DNA of 40,662 nt, from the NCBI GenBank assembly GCA_003139615.1, contig PLJH01000125.1:1-40662 (forward strand). Direction: 5' to 3'. Position numbers and translations under genes: made by a program. The first letter of the stretch is position 1. Each line of letters opens with the position of its first letter. Under the pieces are notes generated by a model. The model searched no databases. It was not told the DNA's origin and worked only from the letters and a program-made list of their open reading frames with translations. This stretch comes from Alphaproteobacteria bacterium. Lineage in GTDB: Bacteria > Pseudomonadota > Alphaproteobacteria > Micropepsales > Micropepsaceae. This document shows positions 26,187 through 30,312 of the stretch, piece by piece.

Positions 26187-27824
26187 CTACTTCCCCACCG
26201 GCGTCATGCCCTGGAAGCTGACCTGGTCGCCCATGCCATCAATGAGGGATTTGATATCGATAGGCGGGGCCACATCGATGCCGGTGCCGGGGTGGTGATG
26301 CTCGAGGTCTTCGAGCGAGAAATCCATTGTCACGTCATAGGTGCGGTCGGGCTGGTTGCGCAGGCGCTGCTCGCCTTCGTACCATTTGCCCTTGTCATGC
26401 CCTTCCGGGCATGACTGGCGCTCGTCGCCCTCCGCACCCCAACGCATCTCGATGCAGTGGAACGGATCGAACGACATTTTGTACAGGCGATGCACCATGT
26501 CGTCGAACGTCATCGCCACGGGCCGTTTGGCCGTGCTCAGATAGGTGATCGTGCAGGCCTGCGATTGCTCGTCATAGGCCTTTTCGAGATCCTGCTTGAG
26601 GAACACGCCGTCATAAACGATGCGCGGATCGCGATGCACCCACATATCGATCATTTCATTCATGTCTTTATAAAACTGCACGAACGCCGCCTTGATGCGC
26701 GCATCGCGTGATGGCGTGGAGTAGGTCTCCCACTCGACATTGCTGGAGCCATAGATGTTGTCGGGCAGTCGCGCGGGATGCGGTTTGTTCTGGAAATTCT
26801 CCTGGATCGCCTGATCGACATATTGCGCGCGATCGTTGAGATCGTTGCACAAGGTCTGCATCGTGGCCTTGAGTTCGTAGATCGGGTTGTAAGTCATCTT
26901 GCCGCCCGACACGGCGACACGGACATATTCATAGAAGCCCAATTCCGCACCGTTATATTTAAAGTGCGCCTTCGTCACATCCTGCTTTGGATTGGGTTCC
27001 GTGCCGACATACTGGACGAGAGAATAATCCGCGATCTGGTCGTTCTCCGCATAAGCCATATGGCCGCCGATCAGATGACCGGCGCTGTCACGATGCGCGC
27101 CGACGAGCTTGAACGGCCGCCAGTTCTTGAACCCTCCCCCCAGCCGCATCGGACTCTGGCCGAATTGTGCGCCATAGACGCTGCGCGAGATGGTGAAATC
27201 GGGATGCGCATCCATGTAGTAGACGCGCCCATCCTCATCGACCTTGTAGACGATGCCGACATGGCCGTTCACGTCATAGACGATGGTGCCGGGATGGATG
27301 GAGCCCGGCTGCAAGGCGGGCGCATAGAAATCCGACAGCACGCCACGCTTCTCGCCCGCATCGGTGCGATATGTACCCGAGTAAACGGTTTCGAGTTCGC
27401 CGCGGATAGCTTCCGGCGCATTGATGCCGGCGCCCCGGTCGATCATGTCGTGTCGCGAAGTCGCGCGGTTCGCGGTTTTGGTGAAGCGCAGATCGCCGCC
27501 TTCGCCGCTCAACCCATCGACATAGCTGAACGGCAAGCCGTTCTTCCACGCATAATAGGCGCGCAGCATGTAGGGCAGCTTGGCGCAATCGACATCAATA
27601 TCGAGGAACGCCTGGTCGGATTTGCGATAGGGATTGGCCGGATTGCGCAGGCAGCTTTCCGAGGAACTGCAATTGGTCTCGCCGAGCGCCTGGACGAAAT
27701 CGCCGAAGCCCTTTTCGTCGGCCTCGCTCCAATGGTCTTTGACGATGCGCCACGAAGCGGCCTGGGCAGACCCGGCGAACGCGACGGCCGCAATCAGGAT
27801 CAGAACGGCCGAAAACGCACGCAT
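26187..27824 (-). CDS. Secreted hypothetical protein with possible papain-like Cys-His-Asp site
   Basis: A 545-residue protein with a clear signal peptide (MRAFSAVLILIAAVAFAG..AQA, cleavage near residue 22-23). I know no named family for it. Two segments look catalytic: DIDVDCAKLPYMLRAYYAWK with C80, and GTIVYDVNGHVGIVYKV with H188 followed by YYMDAHPD with D205. The order Cys, then His in a GHVGIV strand, then an acidic residue, matches NlpC/P60, CHAP and transglutaminase-like hydrolases. This is inference from motif spacing. The C-terminal 300 residues have no recognised domain and hold several further cysteines (C326, C424, C457, C472). ATG at 27824 was preferred over GTG at 27836 because GGGGAC precedes it. 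Confidence 0.7.
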   Translation of the reverse strand: MRAFSAVLILIAAVAFAGSAQAASWRIVKDHWSEADEKGFGDFVQALGETNCSSSESCLRNPANPYRKSDQAFLDIDVDCAKLPYMLRAYYAWKNGLPFSYVDGLSGEGGDLRFTKTANRATSRHDMIDRGAGINAPEAIRGELETVYSGTYRTDAGEKRGVLSDFYAPALQPGSIHPGTIVYDVNGHVGIVYKVDEDGRVYYMDAHPDFTISRSVYGAQFGQSPMRLGGGFKNWRPFKLVGAHRDSAGHLIGGHMAYAENDQIADYSLVQYVGTEPNPKQDVTKAHFKYNGAELGFYEYVRVAVSGGKMTYNPIYELKATMQTLCNDLNDRAQYVDQAIQENFQNKPHPARLPDNIYGSSNVEWETYSTPSRDARIKAAFVQFYKDMNEMIDMWVHRDPRIVYDGVFLKQDLEKAYDEQSQACTITYLSTAKRPVAMTFDDMVHRLYKMSFDPFHCIEMRWGAEGDERQSCPEGHDKGKWYEGEQRLRNQPDRTYDVTMDFSLEDLEHHHPGTGIDVAPPIDIKSLIDGMGDQVSFQGMTPVGK

Positions 27825-28228: not shown

Positions 28229-29137
28229 ATGCGTCTTTCGATTTTTTTTGCTGTCTCATCGGCACTGCTGCTGAGCGCCTGTGCGACTGCAACTGTAAAT
28301 CCGCCGCTGCCCGATGCAGCGCGCAACAGCATCGCTTCTACGGAAGTTGTGGTGCCGATCCGTCAGAGCGAAATCTACGTCTATGTGCCGCCTTCGACCG
28401 CCAACGCTGCGGGTCAAGGAGGTCTTCTTGGCGCGCTGGTCGTTGCGGCGATCAATGCCGGAGTCGATTCCGTTCGTACGCAAAAGGCGGAAACAGCGGT
28501 CAAGCCGCTGCGTGACGCTCTCGTGGACTACAAATTCGACGCGACACTGCGGGACGACGTCAAAGGCTCCCTTGCAAAATTGCCTTGGCTGCACACGTCG
28601 GATGTTCGCGTCGTCAAGGAAGTGACACCAGCCAGCCTCGACTCCGCGTTGGAGCACTCAAAAGCCAATGCCGTTCTGTTCACGACCGCCGACTACCAAC
28701 TGTCGAACGATGCGGACATCCTGACGGTCTCGCTTACGGCGAGCCTTTTCGGAAATACCGATGCCCTCAATGCGCTGAGGACGAAAAAGACGAGCTCCGG
28801 CAGGTTCAGCACGGACATCGCCAATGCCATTTACTACAACACCTTCACCTTCGTCGCGAAGGTGCCTGGCGCGACCGGCGATCGGGATCACAACATCATC
28901 GTATGGGATGCGCAAAACGGCGCGGCGATGCGCGCGGATCTGGCATTGGGGGTCGATAAACTGTCGTCGATGCTTGTGGCGGATTTGCAGACATCCGCTG
29001 CCGATCGCGCAGCCGGCACCGCCTCGACCTTGATGGGTGCCCCCGTGCAAATCGTCGCAACCGACAGCTACGGCGAAACCGTACGACTTAAGGCCGGCAA
29101 TATGGAATTTGCCGAGAAATCCATGGTGGCTCCCTGA
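28229..29137 (+). CDS. Predicted lipoprotein, 302 aa, unknown family
   Basis: The N-terminus MRLSIFFAVSSALLLSAC is a classic lipoprotein signal with lipobox LLSAC, so C18 should be acylated. The next residue is Ala, which favours sorting to the outer membrane. The remainder is soluble with a Gly/Ala-rich patch GQGGLLGALVVAAINAG near residue 64-80, which may be membrane-associated. It ends with a beta-like tail (VQIVATDSYGETVRLKAGNMEF in part). I do not recognise the family. GGGGGCAAACTC precedes the ATG. The next lipoprotein gene starts 21 bases after it, so they form an operon and may act as a pair. Confidence 0.8.
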   Translation: MRLSIFFAVSSALLLSACATATVNPPLPDAARNSIASTEVVVPIRQSEIYVYVPPSTANAAGQGGLLGALVVAAINAGVDSVRTQKAETAVKPLRDALVDYKFDATLRDDVKGSLAKLPWLHTSDVRVVKEVTPASLDSALEHSKANAVLFTTADYQLSNDADILTVSLTASLFGNTDALNALRTKKTSSGRFSTDIANAIYYNTFTFVAKVPGATGDRDHNIIVWDAQNGAAMRADLALGVDKLSSMLVADLQTSAADRAAGTASTLMGAPVQIVATDSYGETVRLKAGNMEFAEKSMVAP

Positions 29138-29158: not shown

Positions 29159-29779
29159 ATGGCACGGCAAGAATGCTTTCGAATCTGGGTCGCAGCCGCA
29201 GCCGCCGCAGCGCTTTTCGGATGTGGCGAGGCACCGACATCCATGATGCTGTCGTCGGACTATACGCCGAGCTCCCATCTGGGCCGGTCCTCTCATTCGT
29301 CAAAGGACACGGGCGCAAATAAGGTTGCGCCATGTCATGTCCGTATCGGCGATATTCACGACTTGCGCGACGACAATCTGACGATGGGTGCATATGGCGA
29401 CTTTCTACTGCGCGCCGTCGATAGTGTTGCTTGGGTGCGTGCAGGCCTTCAGTCGCTGAGCCAGGACTCGCGCGTCCTCGTCGAGGACGGCCCCCCTGAT
29501 TCCACGCTCGTTCTGAATGCGGACTTGCTCAAGGCCTATGTCATGGACAGCGCCCAAGAGGCGCGCGCGACCAACGTCGTGGTGCGGGTTCACTTCAGCC
29601 GGCAGGGCGTCGCACTCGGCGAAAAAACCTACAGGGGGGCCGACGCAGGCCTGAACTGGACTGGCAGCAAGGGCGAAACACAATCCTCGCTCAACAAAGC
29701 GCTTGGCCAGATTATCGATGCGGTCGACGGCGACGTTCTCGGTTATTGCGGCTCAAAGGCTATTCAACGCGCTCAATAG
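29159..29779 (+). CDS. Second predicted lipoprotein, 206 aa, unknown family
   Basis: The N-terminus has a hydrophobic stretch IWVAAAAAAALFGC, giving a lipobox ending at C22; the next residue is Gly. A Ser/Thr-rich linker follows (about 27-52), then a soluble domain with LRDDNLTMGAYGDFLLRAVDSVAWVRAGL (in part), LVLNADLLKAYVMDS and NKALGQIIDAVDGDVL near the end. The layout (linker, then strands carrying a Leu-x-Ala-x-Leu pattern and a C-terminal helix) recalls auxiliary lipoproteins of envelope transport systems, but no family could be assigned. It is the second gene of the lipoprotein operon; its last 7 bases overlap the end of the convergent DUF6886-type gene. Confidence 0.75.
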   Translation: MARQECFRIWVAAAAAAALFGCGEAPTSMMLSSDYTPSSHLGRSSHSSKDTGANKVAPCHVRIGDIHDLRDDNLTMGAYGDFLLRAVDSVAWVRAGLQSLSQDSRVLVEDGPPDSTLVLNADLLKAYVMDSAQEARATNVVVRVHFSRQGVALGEKTYRGADAGLNWTGSKGETQSSLNKALGQIIDAVDGDVLGYCGSKAIQRAQ

Positions 29780-30312
29780 CGCGCCCATCCCGCGGCGTTC
29801 CTGAGCCTGATGCCGCTCGCATGCAGCGAGCTGCTCCAGACACCGCACAGAGGGAGAAGACTATCGAGGATGCGCTGTTCGACGCCTTGAGCGCAAAGTT
29901 CGCTCTCGAAATTATCGATCTTCTTCACATCGATCGGGGCTGCAGACTTACGCGAGACCCACATGCCGGCATCGTCGAGGCTTTCGAAAGTCGCGGCGTC
30001 GAACTCGTAACGAAAAATCACACAGACCCCCAACCGATCAAGCCAGCTTTGCTCGATACAGGCGACCATGCGCGCCTGTGTATCGCCCATCCATCGCTTT
30101 CGATCCTCGTCGGCCGTCCGTGGTGTCGGCCACAGGAGAATGCGCGGGCATTCGCGCGGGAACAGATACATCGGCTGGTGCCAGCCATCGATCGCCCAGA
30201 CGAGCGGTCCGTTCAGCCATTCTGAGCCGGCGCGCCGCTGCGCCGGAACGCTCACCGGTCGCGGCTCGAATATCACGATGTCGGGATCGTCGCTGAAATG
30301 AAACAAGCGCAT
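29773..30312 (-). CDS. DUF6886-type protein
   Basis: A 179-residue soluble protein that begins MRLFHFSDDPDIVIFEPRPV and continues with GPLVWAIDGWHQPMYLFPRECPRILLW (in part). These match, as I recall, a family of uncharacterised proteins now called DUF6886, whose opening HFS-x-x-PDI-x-x-FEPR resembles RES/ART-like enzymes; an ADP-ribose-related role is only a guess. It follows the DUF1467 gene by 15 bases on the same strand, so it may be the last gene of the nuo-birA-coaX-rnj-mce transcript. Its end overlaps the second lipoprotein gene by 7 bases. Confidence 0.7.
   Translation of the reverse strand: MRLFHFSDDPDIVIFEPRPVSVPAQRRAGSEWLNGPLVWAIDGWHQPMYLFPRECPRILLWPTPRTADEDRKRWMGDTQARMVACIEQSWLDRLGVCVIFRYEFDAATFESLDDAGMWVSRKSAAPIDVKKIDNFESELCAQGVEQRILDSLLPLCGVWSSSLHASGIRLRNAAGWARY

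Follow-up and report, generated by a model that had tools for sequence, protein, structure and literature searches.

The 40,662-nucleotide stretch of alphaproteobacterial DNA analyzed here (the window) encodes a 545-residue protein whose N-terminal domain very probably adopts a papain-like fold with an active Cys/His pair. On balance, we favor assigning this protein to a family of periplasmic papain-like cysteine hydrolases, undescribed in the libraries searched, that would act enzymatically on a target in the cell envelope. The family lies near NlpC/P60 and CHAP and is a member of neither by their own criteria, and a search of the open literature found no paper describing it. The features to which we refer are the following.

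26187..27824, minus strand: gene for the 545-residue protein, with ATG at 27824 and stop codon at 26187-26189, assigned from a codon-position test and from orthologues
27759..27824, minus strand: signal-peptide-like N-terminus, residues 1-22 (MRAFSAVLILIAAVAFAGSAQA), recognized by eye, with a helix at residues 2-15 in the model
26970..27755, minus strand: N-terminal domain, residues 24-285, predicted to fold alone and papain-like by structural comparison
27585..27587, minus strand: codon of Cys80, the putative nucleophile, two residues before helix 82-95 and kept in 120/120 sequences covering it
27261..27263, minus strand: codon of His188, the putative catalytic histidine, directly before strand 189-195 and kept in 120/120 sequences covering it
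27198..27212, minus strand: codons 205-209 (Asp-Ala-His-Pro-Asp), with D205 or H207 as candidate, by conservation, for the third residue
26190..26969, minus strand: C-terminal helical domain, residues 286-545, with conserved Cys 326, 424, 457 and 472, from the model and conservation

Reading frame, export signal and domain layout

The 545-residue open reading frame is real, codes on the minus strand and is more than a product of chance. Relative to one orthologue (L041), the minus-strand frame carries 94, 73 and 228 substitutions at codon positions 1, 2 and 3, and the same order (third > first > second) was found in all six orthologues compared. A similar gene length is kept across dozens of genomes. 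An antisense frame of 373 residues lies on the plus strand within the gene, and the antisense frame is open across the whole gene in three of the six orthologues. Because such long antisense frames are also present, openness proves little in DNA of this kind, and it is the codon-position signal that marks the minus strand. A GTG located 12 bases upstream of the ATG at 27824 is an alternative start. A scan for promoters and terminators returned 0 promoter-like sites where 1.1 were expected and 2 terminator-like sites where 2.0 were expected. The reading frame and the residues named in a preliminary description of this DNA, Cys80 (in DCAKLPY), His188 (in GHVGIVYKV) and Asp205/His207 (in YYMDAHPD), are all present as described, on the minus strand.

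The preliminary description had also called the protein secreted, and its translation agrees: by eye, the MRAFSAVLILIAAVAFAGSAQA-ASW start resembles a Sec signal peptide with an AxA site, and no lipobox is visible in the N-terminus. A crude scripted signal rule was met by 97 of the 123 family sequences, cut and broken copies included. Such a start would place the protein in the periplasm. The protein contains seven cysteines (52, 58, 80, 326, 424, 457 and 472), and the six other than C80 are present in 117-121 of the 123 rows. That these conserved residues are even in number is in keeping with an exported protein carrying disulfide bonds; the pattern fits disulfides, the pairing of which conservation does not prove.

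The C-terminal domain is predicted to be mainly helical and spans about 260 residues; in the structural search it gave only unspecific coiled-coil matches. STAT proteins, which appeared as possible relatives of this half in the full-length structural search (Z 6.9 and 6.5), were rejected as a helical-bundle match. Matches to STAT proteins are typical for helical bundles. Several family members depart from the two-domain layout. Four short forms (330-465 residues) have the N-terminal domain with C80 and H188 and have lost much of the C-terminal domain: one from the window's own genome (L022, 3852-5144, plus strand), L235, L236, and L085 (6486-7475, minus strand). All four lack Cys457 and Cys472, and one of them also lacks Cys326 and Cys424. 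In two others, L038 (1278-3974, plus strand) and L117 (9953-12460, plus strand), the family member runs C-terminally into an FGE-sulfatase domain (PF03781; Pfam E 8.9e-53 and 1.8e-54, respectively). The 841-residue L238 (577-3099, plus strand) is probably a third such fusion, judging from its length and the clade that it shares with L038 and L117.

Predicted fold and putative active site

AlphaFold predicted the full-length protein with a mean pLDDT of 91.6 and a pTM of 0.86. Residues 24-285, predicted alone, gave a pLDDT of 94.4 and a pTM of 0.93; since this segment folds by itself with high scores, it looks like a self-standing domain. D205 lies in strand 201-206 of the model and H207 just after it, and H188, directly before strand 189-195 in the full-length model, opens that strand in the domain model. 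The modeled order is therefore a cysteine before a helix, a histidine at the start of a later strand, and D205 and H207 at 17 and 19 residues after H188. This order matches the papain-like succession originally proposed for the site, with a polar residue on or after the strand that follows the histidine.

Searched with Foldseek, the PDB contained no match at E ≤ 0.001; the best hit was at E 0.061 for the domain (2lrj, a staphylococcal protein) and 0.45 for the full model. A viral structure library likewise gave none at E ≤ 0.001, its best match (E 0.028) being a CHAP protein. Re-alignment of Foldseek's own top 1000 chains with VIA-align compared 995 of them with residues 24-285: 78 had Z of at least 2, 31 at least 5 and none at least 8, a range below which Z may reflect just a common arrangement. 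The best row was 7v6u (Z 7.2, rmsd 3.6, 114 residues aligned), tied, as are all rows within Z 1 of each other, with MepS (8xup, Z 7.0, rmsd 4.8, 121 aligned), BCE_2878 (3h41, Z 7.0, rmsd 3.4, 117 aligned), CwlO (23tz, Z 6.4, rmsd 4.0, 121 aligned) and Ly7917 (5d74, Z 6.2, rmsd 3.8, 124 aligned). The CHAP domain of LysGH15 (4olk, Z 5.3, rmsd 4.5, 129 aligned), LysK (4csh, Z 5.0, rmsd 4.5, 125 aligned) and PcsB (4cgk, Z 3.4, rmsd 3.7, 90 aligned) followed, and further neighbors included RipA/B/D, PlyC, Gsp amidase and C39 domains. Among the 50 titles listed, in which several rows can be entries of one protein, 28 name a peptidase, amidase, endolysin, autolysin, wall hydrolase, cysteine protease, NlpC/P60, CHAP or C39. 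Most of the other entries are presumably papain-fold proteins as well, ranks 49 and 50 excepted. The case for a papain-like fold comes from the uniformity of these rows, which are mainly papain-fold enzymes, no single score being decisive. The papain-like core of the preliminary description is accordingly backed by the confident domain model and by its papain-fold Cys/His hydrolase neighbors, with a best Z of 7.2 and a Foldseek E of 0.061 that do not settle the matter individually.

Conservation points to the same residues. In an alignment of 61 members, C80, H188, D79, P208 and D209 are invariant, H207 is present in 59 and D205 in 53. Among 123 collected sequences, position 80 is Cys and position 188 is His in 120/120 of those covering each, the gaps being contig-cut or broken copies; rows with both positions number 119, group into 84 clusters at 80% identity and are thus neither independent nor mere copies. 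Homologues lacking C80 or H188, named beforehand as the observation that would speak against the proposed site, were absent from the 120 sequences covering each position. D209 is Asp in 120 of 121 covering rows, the exception being a broken copy. With one broken copy (L240) left out, position 205 is Asp in 110 of 120 rows and otherwise Ser, Gly or Ala, and position 207 is His in 114 of 120. As pairs, these 120 rows have Asp/His (106), Ser/His (7), Ala/His (1), Asp/Tyr (2), Asp/Ser (1), Asp/Asn (1), Gly/Asp (1) and Gly/Glu (1), so that every one of them keeps either Asp205 or His, Asp or Glu at 207. The expected conservation of the putative catalytic residues thus held for C80 and H188 and was not strict for D205, H207 being slightly better kept; either of the latter is a candidate for the third residue of a putative triad. 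The related expectation that the site residues would be the most conserved positions was borne out in part. C80 and H188 are invariant, but not alone in this: 27 positions of the 262-residue N-terminal domain are the same in 119/119 rows, these two among them along with D79, R88, Y90, N119, R153, D165, D209, R236 and others. Read from the alignment, conservation marks a putative site and not C80 and H188 alone.

In the mechanism that we propose, the protein would be exported, lose its signal peptide and become a soluble periplasmic protein. The nucleophile would be C80, which sits at the N-terminal end of the core helix and would be deprotonated by H188. D205 and/or H207, on or just after the next strand, would orient H188 or help to hold the transition state. 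The result would be cleavage of an amide bond, or transfer of an acyl group, in the cell envelope, and the cysteine-rich helical C-terminal domain would hold or select the substrate. We infer triad geometry and catalysis and, from the export signal and the fold, peptidoglycan or an envelope protein as the target. Within the hydrolase reading, peptidoglycan as the substrate is a guess to which we give somewhat less than even weight.

Two alternatives to this reading keep the same fold. The protein could be a papain-like periplasmic enzyme other than a cell-wall hydrolase, acting on a protein or a small amide, or as an acyl or amine transferase. Gsp amidase, trypanothione synthetase, C39 domains and the IgG protease IdeS do occur among the structural rows, at lower Z (≤ 3.9); Pfam finds no other domain, wall-binding or otherwise, in the protein; and the many invariant polar residues suggest a specific substrate. 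The FGE-sulfatase fusions, two by Pfam and probably a third, point in the same direction, and we know of no such fusions among wall hydrolases. The top-ranked structural neighbors, however, are peptidoglycan endopeptidases, in an order that is weak because rows within Z 1 are tied. We regard this explanation as rather unlikely. The second alternative is that the fold has been kept in a non-enzyme, a binding or scaffold protein such as RipD among NlpC/P60 proteins. RipD, titled a non-catalytic NlpC/P60 protein, is indeed one of the structural neighbors, and short forms and broken copies exist in the family. C80 and H188 are nevertheless kept in all covering rows, the four short forms included, as catalysis predicts, and we consider a non-enzymatic role highly improbable.

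Relationship to CHAP and NlpC/P60 proteins

The preliminary description could place the protein in no known family, and this was borne out for Pfam, NCBIfam, PHROGs, PADLOC and the sequences of the PDB. For the window protein, Pfam returned CHAP (PF05257) alone, at 14.7 bits (E 0.046, residues 181-204) against a cut-off of 26; neither NlpC/P60 (PF00877) nor the transglutaminase core (PF01841) matched at E ≤ 10. When 21 diverse members were searched, CHAP matched 11 of them at E ≤ 1 (best 0.014) and was Pfam's only recurrent hint of a related enzyme. The other weak matches at that threshold were RHS_repeat in three members (best 0.022) and three single matches at ≥ 0.21, and NlpC/P60 was not among the five families listed. 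NCBIfam and PADLOC gave no credible match. PHROGs gave a best E of 0.26 for the window protein and 0.027 for a relative (L098), the latter to a family of unknown function. PDB sequences, queried both with the protein by itself and with a profile of 21 rows, yielded only an LDL-receptor-related protein at E 2.7, which reads as chance.

We also compared the domain by hhalign with CHAP, NlpC/P60 and transglutaminase alignments built from the searched genomes (30 proteins each) and with 15 control profiles. The CHAP profile scored 26.9, the best of 18, through a match of 14 columns around H188, not around the cysteine, at a probability of 10%. NlpC/P60 scored 19.3 and transglutaminase 16.6, and the controls, which were built from script-called ORFs and may include spurious ones, ranged from 10.4 to 17.9. 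After column shuffling, 0 of 60 CHAP profiles reached 26.9 and 1 of 60 NlpC/P60 profiles reached 19.3. In the same set-up CHAP and NlpC/P60, accepted relatives of each other, score 13.4. These comparisons suggest a faint sequence trace of CHAP, too short for claiming membership. The likeness to transglutaminases that had been suggested was not sustained, its score lying within the control range and Pfam giving no match.

Published active sites allow a comparison with both families. In the CHAP domain of LysK, Cys54 lies in a helix, strands C and D carry His117 and Glu134, respectively, and Asn136 is in the next loop; alanine at Cys54 or His117 abolished activity while alanine at Glu134 or Asn136 reduced it (PMC4126393). 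D205 and H207 stand at the same distances from H188, +17 and +19, as Glu134 and Asn136 from His117 of LysK, so that, matched by spacing, His207 takes the place of Asn136 (PMC4126393). In PcsB the corresponding residues are C292, H343 and E360, with the glutamate likewise 17 residues after the histidine (PMC11627006). The protein shares with CHAP domains a papain-type core, by structural alignment with LysGH15, LysK and PcsB, and a GHVA-like histidine strand, NGHVAIV being similar to the GHVAVV found in CHAP proteins of the searched genomes. Unlike CHAP proteins, it has a large helical C-terminal domain, and its Cys-His distance is 108 residues versus 63 in LysK (PMC4126393).

NlpC/P60 proteins give the highest structural Z (MepS, 3h41 and CwlO), and as in the DCSG of NlpC/P60 proteins from these genomes an Asp precedes the cysteine. 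A histidine could serve as the third residue, which would parallel the CHH triad that a survey of papain-like proteins by Ozhelvaci and Steczkiewicz (2023) reports for NlpC/P60 (PMC10318531). Unlike NlpC/P60 proteins, the window protein has an insertion between the helix and the strand preceding the histidine, has an extra domain and lacks the GD motif. That motif is described in the same survey as a hallmark of cluster II ('NlpC/P60, CHAP, and amidases'): it is a Gly-Asp on the first core strand whose Asp interacts with an Arg of strand 5 (PMC10318531). The window family resembles cluster II, as described there, in its cysteine before the core helix, its histidine starting a later strand and possibly its R236 after the presumed last core strand (PMC10318531). 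R236 is invariant in 119/119 rows and follows strand 231-235 in the model. The family differs in having Gly-Thr/Ser in place of Gly-Asp (PMC10318531). If the distance to H188 and the order of strands are used to place the motif at positions 179-180, G179 is kept in 121/121 sequences and position 180 is Thr in 106, Ser in 14 and Arg in 1, so that Gly-Asp never occurs. The word Alphaproteobacteria does not occur in the survey's main text (PMC10318531).

A third alternative is that the protein is a divergent CHAP or NlpC/P60 member missed by the curated models. That CHAP is the most frequent weak Pfam match and the best-scoring profile speaks for this, as do the Asp-Cys and NGHVAIV likenesses. 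The subthreshold CHAP score, the missing NlpC/P60 match, the absence of Gly-Asp from the 121 sequences covering the position and a Cys-His distance longer than that of LysK speak against it. In addition, the same genome encodes genuine CHAP and NlpC/P60 matches elsewhere, two of each. We judge simple membership in either family improbable.

The preferred reading, an undescribed family of periplasmic hydrolases, could be extended to a distinct class of periplasmic papain-like Cys-His hydrolases or acyl transferases with its own envelope substrate, particular to Micropepsales and Parvibaculum-like bacteria and characterized by Gly-Thr/Ser for Gly-Asp, a large insertion before the histidine strand and a dedicated cysteine-rich helical domain. 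This extension would be unlikely on present evidence. Were the preferred reading right, a function would come within reach for a large family, numbering hundreds by the 337 stretches of one scan, and the papain-like families would gain one that has the catalytic pair and lacks the motif by which its nearest relatives are recognized. A plain wall hydrolase would be a useful annotation and no surprise. To our knowledge, the envelope biology of these Alphaproteobacteria has been little studied.

Family range, copies and gene neighborhood

The family occurs mainly in two groups of Alphaproteobacteria. A search with the single protein gave matches at E ≤ 0.001 in 32 of 61 genomes. At the same threshold, a 61-row profile matched 77 of 96 genomes of the order Micropepsales, 13 of 385 of the class and 1 of 299 in a sample of the phylum, the last being the window's own genome, which is counted in each of these figures. 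In one scan of named genomes, 337 stretches encode a relative; the 80 best were retained, and hosts among these 80 include Rhizomicrobium, unnamed Alphaproteobacteria, Parvibaculum, Tepidicaulis and Candidatus Phaeomarinobacter. Two relatives (L089 and L098) come from MAGs labeled Bdellovibrionota, and their position in the tree is unsure owing to long branches. A tblastn search of phage and plasmid records found no relatives of the protein, and none of eight pattern matches in viral contigs was confirmed as one; a phage or plasmid origin of the family is therefore not supported.

Micropepsales and Parvibaculum-like hosts often keep two or three family copies. The window's own genome, a 4.6 Mb draft in which the window sits on a 56 kb contig, has three family loci, a fourth listed match being the second piece of one of them. 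A tree was built by quick search from 120 rows, 118 of them distinct, with SH-aLRT as the only support measure and midpoint rooting for display. In it, the window gene groups with copies of the RNase J-proS locus type described below, and the other two own-genome copies (L021 and L022) fall in two other groups.

On the same strand downstream of the window gene lie a DUF899 gene and a DoxX-like gene, followed by a membrane-fusion gene and an AcrB-family pump (Pfam). Upstream are two divergent ORFs, DUF6886, a glyoxalase-family gene, RNase J and pantothenate kinase (Pfam). The two divergent ORFs (window 28229-29137 and 29159-29779, both plus strand) are lipoprotein-like at the start, by eye, and match no Pfam family at E ≤ 0.01; the DUF6886 gene (29773-30312, minus strand) comes after them. 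None of the neighboring genes examined by Pfam points to peptidoglycan or tells the substrate.

In the window's locus type, RNase J/glyoxalase-family genes flank the family gene on one side and a proS-like tRNA synthetase, accompanied by a permease and an ABC ATPase, on the other. The permease matches MacB_PCD and FtsX in Pfam, and we take it to be LolC-like. An initial neighbor survey, with ORFs called by length alone, found no family-gene cluster in 19 of 81 sources; the locus counts given here come from tblastn. Of 80 loci, 50 have RNase J or glyoxalase before the family gene or the permease after it. Where 5 kb or more of downstream sequence is available, the permease gene follows in 42 of 62 loci; where as much is available upstream, RNase J or the glyoxalase-family gene precedes in 42 of 61. 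The window has the RNase J side of this arrangement and no member of the tRNA synthetase and permease clusters. The same stretches also hold clusters for complex I, biotin ligase, pantothenate kinase, a class II tRNA synthetase and DNA polymerase III alpha. Because such clusters co-occur, we read the arrangement as a stable chromosomal neighborhood and rejected a functional link to lipoprotein transport.

At 16 of 80 loci, all of Parvibaculum type, a gene for an unclassified, exported-looking protein converges on the stop of the family gene; in 11 of these, the last sense codon is followed after 8 bases by the start of the match. An example is the gene for a 275-residue protein at L099 (11603-12427, minus strand); the one such gene tested had no Pfam match. 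Two family copies can also stand tail to tail, about 25 bases apart, as at L085 and L086, where one copy per pair has Gly at position 205 with Asp or Glu at 207. Broken copies with several internal stops were seen at G028:C2:919682-921160 (L027) and G017:C54:1889-3457, and the first of these genomes (G028) carries two additional family copies without stops.
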